Source: Oligoflexales bacterium
Lineage (GTDB): Bacteria > Bdellovibrionota_B > Oligoflexia > Oligoflexales > RGVZ01
NCBI GenBank assembly: GCA_947494335.1
Contig: CANLUT010000001.1
Coordinates: 1,171,649-1,235,648, forward strand
Direction of reading: 5' to 3'
DNA length: 64,000 nucleotides
Shown here piece after piece: positions 14,704 to 22,474 of the stretch. A model generated the notes under the pieces. That model was not told the origin of the DNA. It saw nothing but the letters and a program-made list of their open reading frames with translations, and did no database searches. Each line of letters begins with the position of its first letter. The stretch's first letter is position 1. Made by a program: the position numbers and the translations under genes.

Positions 14704-16095
14704 ATGCATTTTAAACTATTTTTATGCTCTGCTCTGCTCGTTGCAGCGTGCCAAGAGGCTCCCTCATGGATGCCAGGCTCCCAAGATGATGAACAGGGTA
14801 CGCCCTCGCGCCCATCGCAGTCTGCCCCAGAAGTCACAGATAGCTCGCTTCCTGCGGATCCAATTTACAAAGCAGCGATCACAAACCTCGACTACCTAAA
14901 AGCAAGTGTCAACCTTGAGCCATGGCTTAGGCGTGGTCATCACGGCGAGCGTTTGACGATTGCTATCTTAGATAATGGATTTGGCGGTCTCAAAGACGTG
15001 ATTGGCAAGCAGCTGCCGCCCGATACAAAAGTAGAACCCTCGAAACTCAACAATGAATCACCCACACCCCACGGCACCAAATTAGCTGAAATTATTTTTG
15101 CGATGACCTCGGGCTCTCCGCGTTGGACCAGCGAAAGCAAACATCCGCGCATCAAACTTTACAATTCAAATGGTTTTACAAATTTCTCAGCTGCAGTTGA
15201 TCAAGCCATCAGCGACAAGGTTGACATGATCGTCTACTCGCAGGTGTGGGAGTTTGGCGGAAACTTTGATGGCGGTGGTTTTATTAATGCGGCTGTGAAC
15301 AAAGCCACGAATGCAGGAATTCTTTGGATCAATGCAGCAGGGAACTATGCATCCAGTAGCTGGCAAGGTAGCATTCGATTTAGAAGTGACGGAACCGTAT
15401 TACTTCCTTATCAGGAAAACTATGTTCGACTCCTCGTCAATGAAACAGCGACAGCCGTCAAAATTACTCTTGCATGGAATGACTTTGCTGATACGAAAGA
15501 TTGGCGCACTTCAAGGGATCTGGACCTGGTTTTGCTGGACAGCAAAAAGCGAGAAATCGCGGCCAGCCGATTGATTCAAGATGGAGTCGACCATGGTAAA
15601 GATCCCAAGTACAGTGCTCACGCGCGCGAGATGATCACCACCAATCTGCAGCCAGGAGTTTATTTACTCAAGGTGATTGCACGCAGTCGCAACTTCGATG
15701 GGTCTTCGCGATTGAGACTGGCAGCCGATGGTGTGAATATTTCATTTCTCGACCAGTCACCATTTGCATCGGTCATGATCCCCGCAGACAATCCGAATGT
15801 GCTAACGGTCGGGGCCAGCGATGACGACCATAGCTCGGCAGGACCGACAATGGCTGGATTCACGAAGCCGGAAATCGTCGCTCCATCAATTATCGAGGTC
15901 GAAGGAGCATTCGCCTTTCAAGGAAGCTCGACTGCGGCTGCGGTCGCTGCTGCAACACTAGCGGTTTATCAAGAGGCGTGCGGCGTTAAATTCACAAGAA
16001 AGCAACTGCTAGACAGAATTGTCGATGGAAGAATTTCGCAAACCTCAACCAAGGGCCTCGGGCTCTGGTTAAACGCAGATGGCTTATGCCGCTAG
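14704..16095 (+). CDS. Subtilisin-family (S8) protease, lipoprotein
   Basis: A 463-residue lipoprotein (MHFKLFLCSALLVAACQE, lipid Cys16) carrying a subtilase domain. The catalytic triad is visible in order: Asp in LTIAILDNGFGG (about residue 91), His in TPHGTKLAEII (about 121), the oxyanion Asn in NAAGNYASSS, and Ser in FQGSSTAAAVAA near residue 404. The Ser motif GSSTAAA replaces the common GTSMAAP. A beta-sandwich insert (VRLLVNETATAVKITLAWN...) lies between Asn and Ser, as in several bacterial subtilases. It should work at the cell surface or in the periplasm. It lies upstream of a cluster of lipoproteins, one carrying a self-processing domain. Confidence 0.88.
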   Translation: MHFKLFLCSALLVAACQEAPSWMPGSQDDEQGTPSRPSQSAPEVTDSSLPADPIYKAAITNLDYLKASVNLEPWLRRGHHGERLTIAILDNGFGGLKDVIGKQLPPDTKVEPSKLNNESPTPHGTKLAEIIFAMTSGSPRWTSESKHPRIKLYNSNGFTNFSAAVDQAISDKVDMIVYSQVWEFGGNFDGGGFINAAVNKATNAGILWINAAGNYASSSWQGSIRFRSDGTVLLPYQENYVRLLVNETATAVKITLAWNDFADTKDWRTSRDLDLVLLDSKKREIAASRLIQDGVDHGKDPKYSAHAREMITTNLQPGVYLLKVIARSRNFDGSSRLRLAADGVNISFLDQSPFASVMIPADNPNVLTVGASDDDHSSAGPTMAGFTKPEIVAPSIIEVEGAFAFQGSSTAAAVAAATLAVYQEACGVKFTRKQLLDRIVDGRISQTSTKGLGLWLNADGLCR

Positions 16096-16216: not shown

Positions 16217-16277
16217 CCAAGCCTTAAGGTTTAAGCCGATTATACCGATGACTCCTCCAATATTGGAGGTAAGGATC

Positions 16278-17285
16278 ATGGAACATAGAAGACCCAACTA
16301 CGTCGTCGGCCTATCCGCGCTTGTCGTGGCATCTTTAGTGACAGGAGTCGGTTGCAAAAATCGCTCGGTGAAACGGGACATCAAGAAAGATCCTTCTGTT
16401 ATTTTGCAGGGAGCGCCAGAGGACAGCAAAGAAGATCCTACGGTCACCGTGAAAGATCCAGAGAAAGGTGGACCGACAGAGCCCACCGTGTCATCCATGT
16501 GCCGCTACATTGATCCATCACAAAACATTTCGGAAGCTATCCCTGGTAGCCCTGCCGGTCTTGCGATTCCAATCTCCAACTACACAAAAAGTCCTGAGCT
16601 GCTCACGAAACAGGGCTCAAATACCAGCTTCAACTACACGATCTTTCAGAGACAAGATGGTTCAAACAAAACTCTTTTTTGGGATTCAAAAAGCAAAGGC
16701 TGGTTTGCCGTCAACTACAAGGCGACCATTCAAGGTGTCGATTCCCAAGCCTGCACGATTACCGCAGTGGCCACGTCTTCCCCTACAGAGAGAACAATGA
16801 ATGGCTGTTTTGACCCAGAAACACGGATCACGATGGCTGACGGGAGCAAAAAGAAAATCAAAGATATCCAGTTCAACGATCATGTCAAAAACCCTATCAC
16901 CGGAAAGTTTGGGATTGTCGTTCGCGTCACGAAGGGACCAGAGGCTGGAAAAGGCATGTATGAAGTTGGATTTAGCAACGCTGGTCACGTGGTCGTGACT
17001 AGTAAGCATCCGTTCGTCACCGCCACTGGAACAAAGACCGCTGATGAGCTTACGGTGACGGACAAGATCGCAGTCGGTGGAGGTCAATTCAAAAAGATCA
17101 CACACCTTGCCAAGCGCAGCATTAACAAGAAACAAACCGTCGTAAACTTTGCGCTAGCAGGTGCATCGACAAATGATCTTGACCATGTTGTGGAAGCCGA
17201 TGGCGTTGTAGCGGGAGACCTTTTTCTACAAGAAAAACTGGAAAATCTGAAAAAACTCAAAGACTCGGTGGCAAGCTCCAAATAA
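16278..17285 (+). CDS. Lipoprotein with C-terminal Hint (hedgehog/intein) domain
   Basis: Start at ATG 16278 behind GGAGGT; an ATG at 16248 lies before that site. The 335-residue product has a lipobox (TGVGC, lipid Cys26), a charged linker, a domain of about 100 residues with two Cys, and a Hint domain from residue 177 to about 317. Hint blocks seen: Cys177 in GCFDPETRITMADGS, IKDIQFNDHVKNP, GHVVVTSKHPFVTAT with His244, TADELTVTDKIAV, and a final VVNFALAG...DHVVEADGVVAGD. The usual C-terminal His-Asn pair is missing. The N-terminal thioester step looks possible, but Asn cyclisation does not, as in hedgehog and some bacterial intein-like domains. First gene of a three-lipoprotein operon. Confidence 0.8.
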   Translation: MEHRRPNYVVGLSALVVASLVTGVGCKNRSVKRDIKKDPSVILQGAPEDSKEDPTVTVKDPEKGGPTEPTVSSMCRYIDPSQNISEAIPGSPAGLAIPISNYTKSPELLTKQGSNTSFNYTIFQRQDGSNKTLFWDSKSKGWFAVNYKATIQGVDSQACTITAVATSSPTERTMNGCFDPETRITMADGSKKKIKDIQFNDHVKNPITGKFGIVVRVTKGPEAGKGMYEVGFSNAGHVVVTSKHPFVTATGTKTADELTVTDKIAVGGGQFKKITHLAKRSINKKQTVVNFALAGASTNDLDHVVEADGVVAGDLFLQEKLENLKKLKDSVASSK

Positions 17286-17297
17286 GAGGAGACGCGC

Positions 17298-18764
17298 GTG
17301 GCTAAGTTAAGCCAAAGAGCTGTAAAACCCGCGGTCGCCCTCAGCACCGCGGTTACTCTTGTTATCGCTATTTTCGGGTGTCGCCCTGTCAACATAGACA
17401 AATCCAATAAGTCATCTAGTGCAGACTGCGGTGCAAGCGCTATTTCGGTCGGGTCAACTTGTATTAAAGATGGTTTTATCTATCTTCTACAGGAGGCTGT
17501 CACCGGCAAGCTTGAGACCTCCGCAGGAAAGTCCTCCATCTCATTTGGTAAGCTTTCGCTAGTTAAAGGGGACAAGCTGATCAGTAATGTAAGACTGACC
17601 TACCCTCGCGGATCGGCAGCGGCTAAAACCACGACGACCTTTCAGATCGGGACAACGACTGTGGGATCTCCATCAGCTCAGTTTGTTGGTGATTCCGACA
17701 CCGTATCAGTGATCCGCCAAAGCATGACCCATCAGGTCTCCGACTCCGCTGACACTCATGTCACCCTGTCGATCGCTGGAAGCAGTGCAGTACCATCAAA
17801 CACTGAAAGTAGTCTTTTGGTATTCAGGCAAACTCAGGTTGCTTATGCGCTCGATGCTAAGGTGCAAAAACCTGGTATGCCACCCTATTTTGCTGCCGAC
17901 ATGGTCGATACCGATAAAATTAAAGTCACCGAGCTGAAAATTAACTCGACCGCTGACTCGATTATCGAAATCGACTCCAGAAACATTAAATCTGGCGATT
18001 TTTTATTAGTCCGCTCTGGAACCGCTTGGTCTATCAGAGAGGGAAAGACCTCAGCCTGTGAGGGCGCATCATTGGCATGGACCTTAAACCTTGACCAAAA
18101 GGAGCTATCTCAAGACGGTGCTCACACTGTGAGCCAGGCTCGAGCAGTCGGTTCTAGCTCCATGCAAACTGTCTACAAGATCCCAGCTGGCGCAAATCCA
18201 GCGCGCCTGACTCTTAGCGCAAAGCTCACAGCAGGGACCAGTGCTGACCGTAATAATTGCTCTCTGAAAATCACCGAGCCGACGACGCTATCAGCTGTGA
18301 TCTTTCGACCTTTAAATGAATTACCAACTGAAATTCAAACCGCACGCTATCTTCATGAAATGGGTGTAGTTGCCAGCGAGGCCGCGAAGCTTCCCACACA
18401 CCCATCAGGTCCTCCCATCCAAACCATGCTCAGTTTAAACTGGGAACATCTTCGCGGTGACGCACTGCTCACTGAAACACTCGTCCATGTCGCAGCGGAA
18501 GACCGCCTTCAATCCAGTAAAATATTTCTTCAACTTAGTCGCGCGCCCGACGGTCTGTCATCTCACGTGGCCAACGCGATGCTCATTGATCCAGATAAAC
18601 CACGAGCTTTATCTATTTTCGATCTTGCCGTCGAAGGAGATCTCGCCACGCAGACACGCTTTTACCTCACCGGTATGGGCTATAACAACGACTCAAAAAA
18701 CATCTCAATTAATGATGCCAAGATACTATTCATGCACTTCAGGCGTATCGGAGATAAGCTATGA
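17298..18764 (+). CDS. Lipoprotein, unknown, second gene of Hint operon
   Basis: A 488-residue lipoprotein starting at GTG 17298 (GAGGAG at 17286-17291), with lipid Cys28 in AIFGCRPVN. It lies 12 bases after the Hint-lipoprotein gene. The body is beta-rich with many Ser/Thr, scattered Cys pairs (SACEGA, NNCSLK) and no known catalytic motif. It looks like a secreted sandwich-type protein of about 460 residues. Unrecognised. The tight spacing on both sides implies that it works with the Hint protein and the next lipoprotein. Confidence 0.6.
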   Translation: MAKLSQRAVKPAVALSTAVTLVIAIFGCRPVNIDKSNKSSSADCGASAISVGSTCIKDGFIYLLQEAVTGKLETSAGKSSISFGKLSLVKGDKLISNVRLTYPRGSAAAKTTTTFQIGTTTVGSPSAQFVGDSDTVSVIRQSMTHQVSDSADTHVTLSIAGSSAVPSNTESSLLVFRQTQVAYALDAKVQKPGMPPYFAADMVDTDKIKVTELKINSTADSIIEIDSRNIKSGDFLLVRSGTAWSIREGKTSACEGASLAWTLNLDQKELSQDGAHTVSQARAVGSSSMQTVYKIPAGANPARLTLSAKLTAGTSADRNNCSLKITEPTTLSAVIFRPLNELPTEIQTARYLHEMGVVASEAAKLPTHPSGPPIQTMLSLNWEHLRGDALLTETLVHVAAEDRLQSSKIFLQLSRAPDGLSSHVANAMLIDPDKPRALSIFDLAVEGDLATQTRFYLTGMGYNNDSKNISINDAKILFMHFRRIGDKL

Positions 18765-19297
18765 GGGCGGGTATCATAGTTTGGATGATTCCTGTCACTC
18801 TAGTCGTCAGCTGTGCACCGGTGAAGACGAGCAAACCTGACAAAAGCCAACCGAGCGACAGCCTGCCAGTGAGTGAGCCACCTGGAGACACAGGCTCCGT
18901 CAGTTCTATGACAACCCAGCCAACAGGGCGATCCGTTGACCTCTACGCAATACGCGCAGGATTGACGAAAGGTTTTGTTCCACCCGATATTGATAAGCTA
19001 CCTTGCTCGTTCCTTCGCCAAGGAAGCCCGTTTACGATCCCAGCGGTCGCTGGAGGGCCACCACTTGCGCTTCCAGGGCCTCTACAAAACAATTACTCTG
19101 GCGTCTGGAATGGCTTGCAGGAGTTAAGATTCAAGGTCTCTGCCTACAACCGCATCTACCACAATCCAGGCATACCCGATTGGCTGCTGACTAAGCCAAC
19201 CAGCCGCACCATAGAATACGTGATTAAACTTTACGACGTAGTTGTAACGAATCCAACCCAACAAAACTGCAGTATCGCTGCACGTAAACTAAATTAG
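18761..19297 (+). CDS. Lipoprotein, unknown, third gene of Hint operon
   Basis: A 178-residue lipoprotein (MRAGIIVWMIPVTLVVSCAP, lipid Cys18). Its ATG overlaps the previous stop as ATGA, so translation is probably coupled. A disordered Pro/Ser/Thr stretch (residues 22-50) links the anchor to a small domain with two Cys (LPCSF and QNCSIA) that may pair. Unrecognised. Between its end and the convergent gene at 19365 there is an imperfect GC-rich hairpin (about 19329-19353) without a T-run. Confidence 0.6.
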   Translation: MRAGIIVWMIPVTLVVSCAPVKTSKPDKSQPSDSLPVSEPPGDTGSVSSMTTQPTGRSVDLYAIRAGLTKGFVPPDIDKLPCSFLRQGSPFTIPAVAGGPPLALPGPLQNNYSGVWNGLQELRFKVSAYNRIYHNPGIPDWLLTKPTSRTIEYVIKLYDVVVTNPTQQNCSIAARKLN

Positions 19298-19364: not shown

Positions 19365-20753
19365 TCAGAGATCTATAACAGTGGTACCTATATCAATGAC
19401 ACGACCATCCTTCAGACGAATCCGAGCATCAGCAGACAGTTTTTGCCAGCTCCAAATTTTATAGGCTCGACTTTGAAAATCTATGGGCAAGACCTGTAAA
19501 CCATCTTTTGCACCAGTCGTCGCAGAGAAATCACGGTAACCATCAACTTGATAGATGACAGATTGAACGGCTTCCAAAGCGCGTTTGTCACCTGCGATAT
19601 CCAAAACAAAGAAATGAGCGCCGAGTAGTCCGCGGTAGTCTTTCGTTGCCGATTTCAATCGAAACGAATCACGTGTAATGCCATCAACAATGAGATCGGG
19701 AACCGGTGCTGGTCTTGGCGCTGGAGTTGGGGCGGGTTGGGGCTGAGGCGCTGGCGTCACATCAGGAGTTGGCGCTGGGACAACACGAGGAGATTTGTCT
19801 CTAAGTTTCCCCTGGTCATCAAAAACTGCAATATCAGCAATCGACCATGCGTAGCAGTAGGAGTAGCTACAGTAACTAAAAGGAATGTAACCATATCCGC
19901 GATTACCCCAGGAACTACCCCATGAGTTCTTAATGATGAAGTAGCCACCGCCGCCCACGCGACTGTCAACAACAACCCCTGTTAATACGATCGCATGTCC
20001 GCCCTGTTTTGCTCCCCCTGGCATAATGATCCCACCGGACTTCGGATTCATAAAGGAGCCGTTTACATCAAGATTAATCACAACAGGCTCGCCGGCACGA
20101 ATTGATGCGACGACATCCGACAACGTTAGTTTTATTTTTCTGCTTGCCGATAATTTCGCTCTCACCTTGCCATCAGCACCAGCTTGCTTTTGGCCGTAAT
20201 AGGGCCAAAGACTTTCATCGATAAATCCGCGCGTCCTACCTGCCTCTAAAGAGGGACTTGTTTGATACACACCGTAGGATCGAAAGTGATGAATCTCGCT
20301 TAAATCCATCGAAGTGCCAAAAAATCTTCTACCAAGATTCTCAACGGCTGCAATGGTCGCAAACGATGTACACCATGGGCGAGATCCCTGGTTTTTAATC
20401 GGCGTATCGTAAACCCGCAAATCTGTTGCCTCTCTCACATCTGTATCACTGTCGAGGCTTAGTCCGATTTGATCAACCACAAGCGCTTCGTCGACCTCTG
20501 CCCCTTCAAAAAGAGGCATCAGTGATAATTTTCGTTCCTCCAATTGCGATGCTGAACTCTGCTGGTCGGGAAGTTTTTCAGCAACCATCATCAAGGTGAC
20601 AATATCCTCTGTATCCATCTGTGTCTGATCGGCTTGCGCGAACGCCTGCACAGCACGACTTGGCGGTCGTTCTGACCCACACGACATCAGAACAAACAAC
20701 CCTGCAAAACCCAAAAATGCAGGCCATCGCGCGCTAAAAAAAACATATTTCAT
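19365..20753 (-). CDS. Papain-like (C1) cysteine protease, lipoprotein, YEATS-like tail
   Basis: The start is ATG 20753 behind GGAGG; an upstream in-frame ATG at 20804 precedes the ribosome binding site. The product is 462 residues. The lipobox is LMSC (Cys25). Residues 113-300 form a C1A peptidase: Gln122 and catalytic Cys128 in IKNQGSRPWCTSFA, His253 in KQGGHAIVLTG, and Asn276 in IIKNSWGSSWG. A Pro-rich linker (about 330-360) leads to a C-terminal beta domain (VIYQVDGYRDFS, WSWQKLSADARIRLKDGR) that resembles prokaryotic YEATS domains; that call is tentative. The region before Cys128 could be a propeptide. It should act outside the inner membrane. Confidence 0.82.
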   Translation of the reverse strand: MKYVFFSARWPAFLGFAGLFVLMSCGSERPPSRAVQAFAQADQTQMDTEDIVTLMMVAEKLPDQQSSASQLEERKLSLMPLFEGAEVDEALVVDQIGLSLDSDTDVREATDLRVYDTPIKNQGSRPWCTSFATIAAVENLGRRFFGTSMDLSEIHHFRSYGVYQTSPSLEAGRTRGFIDESLWPYYGQKQAGADGKVRAKLSASRKIKLTLSDVVASIRAGEPVVINLDVNGSFMNPKSGGIIMPGGAKQGGHAIVLTGVVVDSRVGGGGYFIIKNSWGSSWGNRGYGYIPFSYCSYSYCYAWSIADIAVFDDQGKLRDKSPRVVPAPTPDVTPAPQPQPAPTPAPRPAPVPDLIVDGITRDSFRLKSATKDYRGLLGAHFFVLDIAGDKRALEAVQSVIYQVDGYRDFSATTGAKDGLQVLPIDFQSRAYKIWSWQKLSADARIRLKDGRVIDIGTTVIDL

Positions 20754-20975
20754 ATACGTGGTCCTCCAAAGTTTACTTTTCGTCGCACCAATCGATGCGA
20801 ACAAAAGCTGGGAGTCCCTCGGAAACGTACATTTGCGCCTTTAATCGCAAAAGTTCGTTAACCACTACGATATCCGACCTAGCTGATATACAAAGGAAAA
20901 ATCACAGGGCCCAGGCGACACCTGAAAGCTCTAATTGTTTATGAGATTAATGATGACTGAGCGGATAGCAGGTAT

Positions 20976-22376
20976 TTAGTCTAGATATTTGTAATCCATC
21001 AGATAGTGGCAACCTTTGGCAGCTTCCTCGTCAGAAACATACTTTGAAGTGGAATCCGCAAGACTCATGCCGGTTGGACGGCTAAGCTCAGGCGCAGAAC
21101 CAGCTGCGACAACGGTTTCCAAGGCGATCTTTGAAGCCACCAGCATCCCGTCAAAATCGATCTTATCAACATGATCTGAAGTCTTGTGATAGTGCGGGTT
21201 GTTAGACACGCCCGTGTGGTAGAAAATACCTGGTATGCCCTTATTCATAAACGGGGCATGATCACTTCCGCCCTCGACGTTCTCGGTAAATTTCATTTTG
21301 TAAGCAGGATACTTCTGCGCAATCCTCCGAGCCGTCGCATCACCCCACTTTGAGGTGACTGTGCCAATCGCAGCAATCGCATTACCAAACGTCTTCGCGT
21401 AGCCGACCATATCCAAATTAATCATGAATACATGCTTATTCAATGGCACAGCCGGATTGGCAACATAATGGCGCGAGCCTAAAAGACCCTCTTCTTCACC
21501 AGAGAACCACATAATCAGAACCGAGCGTTTCAGAGATGATCGTACTGTCGCGAGTGACTTAGCGACATTTAACAGCGCGATTGTTCCTGATCCATTATCA
21601 TCCGCACCATTACAGATACGATCACCTGCGGCACCAGCACTACACGTGTAACCCTTATCCAAGGTGCCTGCATGATCCATATGAGCGCCAATGACGACAT
21701 ACTCGTTTTTCAGCGCGGGATCACTTCCTTCGATCAGGCCGACAATGTTACTCGACATGCTGCCGCTCGTTGGACCAACTGTCATGCGAAACTGCTGACG
21801 ATATTCGCCAAACACGGGTGCAATTTTGAGTTTTTTAAGCTCTTCAATCAGATAGTCCCCAACCTGATTATTCTCCGTGGTGCCAGCCAAACGACCATTA
21901 AATTTATCTTGAGTCAGAAATGTCAGTTCGTCTTGTAGGGTTTTTAACGACATCAGCGCAAACGCCTCGTCAAGAGAGTTAGCTGCACCTGGATTTTTCA
22001 ATCGAAAGCGCAGCATTTCCAATCCAGCTTTATTGATAATGAGGTAGTCCTGAAGTGTGGTCAGTTTTGGTGAGATTTTTGGACGATAAAGTGCGCGCTC
22101 ACCGGGAGCTCCAAATTCCTCTAATGTTAGCTTTTCTGCGCTGGCGTCACAGGCACCATCTCGTCCCGTCAAACATAGCTGCGCATCCGTCTTATTTGGA
22201 AATGAGATCAGAAGTGCAGGGTCCGTCTCTACTTTCTGGTCGAACAGCGCGACAAATACCTGATCAACCAAACTGCGTAGTCGCGCGACTTGGTTTACCG
22301 GTGAGCAGCCTGACGCTATCAGAGTCAATATCAATGCAATCTGAGCACAAACCATGGGTTTGCGATAGCCATACAT
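20976..22376 (-). CDS. M28-family zinc peptidase, lipoprotein
   Basis: Start at ATG 22376 behind GGAGGG; an in-frame TTG lies 15 bases upstream. The 466-residue product is a lipoprotein (ALILTLIASGCSP, lipid Cys24). The M28 di-zinc core is clear: His in VIGAHMDHAG, bridging Asp in GADDNGSGTIAL, the Glu-Glu pair in WFSGEEEGLLGS, Asp in MINLDMVGY, and the last His in HYHKTSDHVDKI. The Cys pair around CSAGAAGDRICNGADD may be a disulfide. Aminopeptidase or carboxypeptidase activity on peptides outside the cytoplasm is expected. A second M28 enzyme is encoded at 44324. Confidence 0.88.
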   Translation of the reverse strand: MYGYRKPMVCAQIALILTLIASGCSPVNQVARLRSLVDQVFVALFDQKVETDPALLISFPNKTDAQLCLTGRDGACDASAEKLTLEEFGAPGERALYRPKISPKLTTLQDYLIINKAGLEMLRFRLKNPGAANSLDEAFALMSLKTLQDELTFLTQDKFNGRLAGTTENNQVGDYLIEELKKLKIAPVFGEYRQQFRMTVGPTSGSMSSNIVGLIEGSDPALKNEYVVIGAHMDHAGTLDKGYTCSAGAAGDRICNGADDNGSGTIALLNVAKSLATVRSSLKRSVLIMWFSGEEEGLLGSRHYVANPAVPLNKHVFMINLDMVGYAKTFGNAIAAIGTVTSKWGDATARRIAQKYPAYKMKFTENVEGGSDHAPFMNKGIPGIFYHTGVSNNPHYHKTSDHVDKIDFDGMLVASKIALETVVAAGSAPELSRPTGMSLADSTSKYVSDEEAAKGCHYLMDYKYLD

Positions 22377-22474
22377 TTCAGGACCCTCCAAGATCCCTCC
22401 ATATCGGCTTTAAGCACTCCGAACTTTAGTCTTTTTTTAAAATGTCATAAACCGTCTGTAGATTCGACTGTCTA

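Follow-up and report, generated by a model that had tools for sequence, protein, structure and literature searches.

What does a Hint domain do at the C-terminus of an exported protein in which the parts needed for splicing are missing? The question is raised by an open reading frame (16278–17285, forward strand) in the window, the 64,000-nucleotide stretch of an Oligoflexales bacterium genome analyzed here, which by sequence reading encodes an exported, probably lipid-anchored protein of 335 amino acids. A sequence-only reading had described this protein as a lipoprotein with a self-processing Hint domain; its numbering of Cys177 and T241-S-K-H244-P245 was right, and so were its open reading frame and start, the ATG lying 8 nt downstream of GGAGG. 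The features of the gene and of the two genes that follow it are given below.

16265–16269, forward strand: Shine-Dalgarno sequence GGAGG, 8 nt before the ATG at 16278, from the sequence.
16278–16352, forward strand: signal peptide, residues 1–25, with a loose lipobox (T-G-V-G) at its end, from the sequence.
16353–16355, forward strand: Cys26, residue 1 of the mature protein and predicted to carry the lipid, from the lipobox.
16356–16490, forward strand: linker, residues 27–71, without confident structure (block-mean pLDDT 30–42).
16491–16805, forward strand: N-domain (~105 aa), residues 72–176, with Cys75 and Cys159, from alignment; homologous to the Hint-less 178-aa neighbor.
16803–16808, forward strand: Gly176-Cys177, the predicted scissile bond and nucleophile, from aligned relatives.
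16806–17219, forward strand: Hint domain, residues 177–314, from hmmscan, profile search and predicted structure.
16998–17009, forward strand: block B, T241-S-K-H244 (followed by P245), from aligned domains.
17145–17147, forward strand: Asn290 at the block F:4 position, which is Asp in most inteins, placed by profile alignment.
17214–17219, forward strand: Gly313-Asp314 replacing the intein His-Asn, from the profile register.
17220–17282, forward strand: C-terminal tail, 21 residues, with a predicted helix (315–334) in the AlphaFold2 model and an invariant Gln318.
17298–18764, forward strand: operon partner, a predicted 488-aa lipoprotein (LVIAIFG-Cys) with no Pfam match; a homologue lies beside the Hint lipoprotein of genome G008.
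18761–19297, forward strand: predicted 178-aa lipoprotein, a Hint-less relative of the N-domain by profile comparison, overlapping the 488-aa gene by 4 nt.

The protein has only four cysteines, at positions 26, 75, 159, and 177. The signal peptide and the position of Cys26 directly after TGVG fit the lipoprotein part of the sequence-only reading, with the qualification that the lipobox is non-canonical, having Gly at −3, which makes lipidation at Cys26 likely and not certain. A [GAS]-Cys pair directly after the hydrophobic stretch is also found in three homologous Hint lipoproteins (G008, G035, and G018).

Comparison of the whole protein with Pfam returned four Hint/intein families at E values of 2e-6 to 2e-4, each below its curated cut-off (28.3 against 32.1, 23.1 against 27, 22.7 against 29.7, and 21.4 against 35.8 bits), and TIGR01445 (intein_Nterm) scored 23.7 against 24.5 bits. 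The Hint domain alone reached at best 30.5 bits against 32.1, and by itself neither protein nor domain passes a curated Pfam or NCBIfam cut-off. One relative (L069) lies above the PT-HINT cut-off with 30.8 against 27.7 bits, and when 53 family members were scanned at E ≤ 0.01, 43 matched Vint (PF14623), 28 Hom_end_hint, 27 the intein splicing family, and 25 PT-HINT (PF07591). A profile of these 53 members compared with the PDB gave the BIL2 structures 6y75/6tmm at 7e-12 and the BIL structure 2lwy at 1e-11, along with many inteins. The AlphaFold2 model built for residues 177–335 has block-mean pLDDT values of 84–98 across residues 181–335, and Foldseek places it closest to the same proteins (6y75, E 4e-9; 2lwy, 1e-7), with a TM score of 0.88, normalized to the target, for the gp41-1 intein (6qaz); DnaB and RecA inteins and hedgehog (1at0) are also returned. 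Altogether 51 PDB structures match the model at E ≤ 0.001, and among the matches listed all are inteins, BIL, hedgehog, or Vint. The two marks of the HINT superfamily, an N-terminal nucleophile (Cys177) and block B T241xxH244, are both present. The homology of the domain to Hint proteins, judged by these alignments, is more than chance, and its predicted HINT fold is as certain as computation can make it. The earlier assignment of a Hint domain to this open reading frame was thereby borne out.

Such a device had been called unusual for a bacterial surface; in the family search the domain does not stand alone but belongs to exported Hint proteins spread through the phylum. A single-sequence search of 191 genomes gave matches in 29, and a profile search gave matches in 38 of the 58 genomes examined from the window's phylum, with as many as 14 in a single genome. 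One copy of the domain is present in the window's own genome, of which a PF07591 search found nothing at the family threshold. A single-protein search of genome contigs returned one weak hit, in Labilibaculum (36% over 56 aa). In total about 80 related domains were found, nearly all in the window's phylum and at the C-terminus of exported proteins. Outside the phylum there is one strong case, a genome of another, tiny phylum (G246) with five domains; other hits are weak and scattered, and some of them are other kinds of Hint, such as those of G210 and G340, in which the C-terminal His-Asn is retained. The candidate G013:C858 is not a clear member, judged by the open reading frame examined. In a tree, the window domain and the G008 lipoprotein group together (support 0.93) among the pilin-type domains, with deeper nodes weak.

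Three kinds of carrier are found. The first is lipoproteins, comprising those of the window, G008, G035, G018, and also G246 of the other phylum, whose members (L130–L133) are 650–1150 aa long with a C-terminal Hint domain and a TGD-x3-Gln ending. The second is prepilin-like proteins of ~480–1000 aa with an invariant Gly ahead of a hydrophobic N-terminal segment, one of which has a sub-threshold N_methyl match and for which a 51-residue helix followed by strands is predicted at low confidence. Their operons contain two prepilin-like genes and a gene for a ~300-aa membrane protein, recurrent neighbors at 32, 12, and 11 loci; one neighboring prepilin scores above the N_methyl cut-off (22.9 against 21.2) and another just under it (20.7). 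Large prepilin-like Hint proteins are encoded at L067:5683–9872, L034:2701–7294, and ~30 other loci, with the ~300-aa membrane neighbor lacking a Pfam match, and such large proteins in minor-pilin operons are possibly Hint-bearing pilus-tip proteins. The third kind is secreted proteins of ~260 aa (L081–L091) with conserved neighbors of their own, which at 8–9 loci are a lipoprotein of ~470 aa and a protein of ~200 aa; a Pfam scan of a 469-aa neighbor of these small proteins found no match. A divergent Hint domain with a Gly-Ser-x3-Gln ending is found in two secreted proteins of ~315–350 aa, encoded ~6 kb apart or less, from a different lineage with a 9-Mb genome (L136, G085).

Conservation was counted over 84 aligned domains, with the rows having a residue at the given column as denominator. 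Three of the rows (G176, G210, and G340) are other kinds of Hint that end before or outside the Gly-Asp columns, and the family itself is therefore about 80 domains. Cys1 is present in 81/81 rows and block-B His in 84/84, whereas Thr of block B is found in 76/84 and Gly at −1 in 75/81. Block F:4 is Asn in 83/84. At the end of the domain Gly313 (80/80), Asp314 (78/80), and Gln318 (80/80) form a new Gly-Asp-x3-Gln signature. The identity of relatives to the window domain is only 21–48%, and retention of Cys1, His, Asn, and the ending at such distances points to selected chemistry. The invariance of Cys1 and block-B His makes it highly unlikely that the domain has lost catalysis and serves only for structure or binding, a reading suggested by the missing splicing motif, the Asn at block F:4, and the lack of a lone profile score above cut-off; a purely structural role would need no Cys immediately after a near-invariant Gly. 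Block F:4 in inteins is Asp, or Cys in class 3, and the Asp helps to activate Cys1 (PMC4031507). With Asn in its place, the rate of cleavage could be low or dependent on a trigger. A Cys at −2 is found in 42 of 81 relatives (for example L035, L041, and L081), mostly as Cys-Gly-Cys1 and in the small secreted type often as Cys-x-Cys-Gly-Cys; the window protein has none. In these sequences a disulfide acting as a redox lock on the Hint nucleophile is possible.

The absence of a C-terminal His-Asn had been reported correctly. Profile position 146 aligns with residue 137 of the Mtu RecA mini-intein (139 residues long), which puts the family Gly-Asp exactly at the intein His-Asn. In BIL2 the last aligned position is chain residue 145, and with the last catalytic residue of BIL2 (N143A in the entry title) expected three residues on, its numbering should give the same Gly-Asp register. 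The loss is not decay, since Gly-Asp-x3-Gln takes the place of His-Asn across the family; judged from the alignment it is a fixed replacement. The tails that follow are 10–35 aa long (median 19; 21 aa in the window), and the +1 residue, Leu315 in the window, is Cys, Ser, or Thr in none of 76 measured cases. No C-extein follows the window's Gly-Asp ending, and the parts for splicing are missing. An intein or intein remnant was ruled out by the lack of His-Asn and of a C-extein and by the C-terminal position throughout the family, and a toxin-release Hint by the lack of any domain behind it, the protein ending 21 aa past Asp314.

The position of Asp314 raises the alternative that it replaces the terminal Asn, with cuts at both Gly176-Cys177 and Asp314-Leu315 freeing the tail peptide, as in B-type BILs. 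Among inteins there are cases with a C-terminal Asp and cases without the penultimate His (PMC4031507), and Asp314 stands exactly at the Asn position by register and is nearly always kept. We nevertheless consider two-ended cleavage quite unlikely, since Asp314 begins the helix 315–334 in the model, so that helix capping would explain the Asp as well, and since Gln318, beyond the would-be cut, is invariant, as if domain and tail stay joined.

Canonical splicing would require a terminal Asn and a +1 nucleophile; as both are missing, N-cleavage or transfer is what one expects instead. In HINT chemistry, Cys1 together with the block-B Thr/His makes an N-terminal thioester (PMC4031507, PMC7664689). 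That such a thioester could form at Gly176-Cys177, as had been suggested, is in principle well supported by homology, predicted fold, and the invariance of Cys1 and His in ~80 relatives. The reading we favor, and hold to be probable, is that the lipoprotein precursor matures itself outside the cytoplasm. Following export and likely lipidation at Cys26, the C-terminal Hint domain would fold, and His244 and Thr241 would promote an N-S acyl shift converting the Gly176-Cys177 peptide bond into a thioester, which would be resolved most simply by water. The Hint part (computed mass 17.0 kDa) would be shed, leaving a lipid-anchored N-domain of ~16 kDa (mature N-part, 16.4 kDa) that ends in Gly176; a product of ~18 kDa had been anticipated. 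With the lipid on Cys26, the N-domain would stay in the membrane and the Hint part would leave, contrary to the earlier suggestion that the N-part is released.

Self-maturation is supported by the HINT fold found by profile search, hmmscan, and structure prediction, and the invariance of Cys1 and block-B His at such low identity fits selection for chemistry at the Gly-Cys bond. The position of the domain also argues for it, being C-terminal on exported carriers throughout the family, without a +1 nucleophile. Counting against it are the Asn at block F:4, the non-canonical −3 residue of the lipobox, and the sub-cut-off scores of the window domain; simple N-cleavage also leaves the conserved Gly-Asp-x3-Gln unexplained.

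Further support for self-maturation comes from the operon, in which the Hint lipoprotein gene is followed after 12 nt by the 488-aa gene. The gene order is the same in G008, where homologues of the 488-aa and 178-aa proteins are fused into one. The Hint lipoprotein of G018 lies between a Hint-less lipoprotein of 208 aa, upstream, and a lipoprotein of 566 aa, downstream; tblastn at 1e-3 did not match the 566-aa protein to the 488-aa one, and the resemblance is therefore one of layout only. Within the operon, blastp did not connect the N-domain with the 178-aa protein, but hhalign of the N-domain profile with that of the Hint-less proteins did, at a probability of 93 and an E value of 3.1e-7. 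Both the 178-aa neighbor and the G018 208-aa protein are N-domain relatives that end near the predicted cleavage site, a sign that the domain can serve on its own, in line with maturation by removal. The freed N-domain would then work with the two other operon lipoproteins, one of them a Hint-less version of itself. A relative in the same genus that lacks the Hint gene (G001) has a fragment of the 178-aa gene (L093:1501–1692, 53% identity over 64 aa) with no complete open reading frame and intact genes on both sides, a remnant indicating that the operon has been lost in places. Predicted exported or lipoprotein peptidases surround the operon, namely an S8 subtilase (14704–16095, forward), a C1 papain-like protein (19365–20804, reverse), and an M28 peptidase (20976–22391, reverse). 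The window's other neighbors, including the subtilase, have no homologue beside the relatives' loci examined. A promoter scan was at chance level and a terminator scan was uninformative.

The same thioester could, by analogy, react with an amine or some different nucleophile, so that the lipid-anchored N-domain becomes covalently linked to an acceptor such as a lysine of a partner lipoprotein, an envelope lipid, a peptidoglycan amine, or a foreign surface. The closest sequence and structure match, BIL2, forms isopeptide bonds with lysine (PMC8616854), the N-domain and C-terminal Hint stand in hedgehog-like order, the conserved operon supplies potential protein acceptors, and for the pilin-like proteins that carry relatives of the domain, covalent attachment would be an advantage. 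However, a sterol- or adduct-recognition region is lacking in the short tails, no acceptor is singled out, and the lipoprotein-type partners are not common to the pilin type. We regard such ligation, the transfer to a nucleophile that had also been suggested, as a conjecture that is possible though not probable. Its wider form, in which the Gly-Asp-x3-Gln Hint domains of anchored carriers across the phylum charge the N-part as a thioester and join it to a surface nucleophile without ATP, is doubtful; the carriers would be the lipoproteins and the prepilin-like proteins, the latter perhaps located at pilus tips, and the ligating domain would be hedgehog-like.

When compared with known systems, the window domain falls outside the inteins, the A-type BILs, and hedgehog. 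The intein marks, C-terminal Asn or His-Asn, +1 Cys/Ser/Thr, and C-extein, are replaced by Gly313-Asp314-Leu315 and the tail. A- and B-type BILs share with it the HINT fold, Cys1, block-B TxxH, and the lack of a +1 nucleophile; A-type BILs keep His-Asn where the window family has Gly-Asp-x3-Gln. B-type BILs have a block G unlike that of inteins and cut at splice sites (PMC4031507). The window domain has no His-Asn, is C-terminal, and has no C-flank domain. BIL2 of Tetrahymena BUBL, the best profile and fold match, is flanked by ubiquitin-like domains in a polyubiquitin locus, has a C-terminal Asn143, and is Zn-gated (PMC8616854). Domain order, the predicted Gly/Cys cut, and the fold match (1at0/6tyy) resemble hedgehog (Hog), but the window protein has neither a Hedge domain nor a sterol-recognition region. 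The hedgehog Hint thioester transfers the N-part to cholesterol. In Pretoxin-HINT proteins a toxin domain follows the Hint domain; none does so here, and the window protein is under the cut-offs of both PF07591 and PF14623. The nearest known kind, as described by citing papers, is probably the C-type BIL from Bdellovibrio, of which the window family may be a member or a sister (Dori-Bachash et al. 2009, PMID 19153786, via PMC2797640, PMC2814812, and PMC9185962), a BIL/Hint of predatory bacteria, with which a dedicated domain, PPS-1, is reported (as cited in PMC9185962). In the literature searched, which covers the C-type BIL through citing papers, lipoprotein or prepilin carriers of Hint, the Gly-Asp-x3-Gln signature, and Hint-less operon twins were not found.

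Bacterial Hint domains are known mostly as inteins, toxin-release modules, and BILs of unclear purpose. From its sequences, the window family appears to be a little-charted set of ~80 surface or pilus-like proteins with a new ending in place of the intein ending, a large conserved exported set with hedgehog-like order, a defined C-terminal signature, and both lipoprotein and prepilin-like carriers. The operon of the Hint protein also encodes natural versions of its N-domain that lack Hint. Together these features make the purpose of bacterial BIL-like domains directly testable, and the family offers small domains with which thioester chemistry could be done extracytoplasmically.
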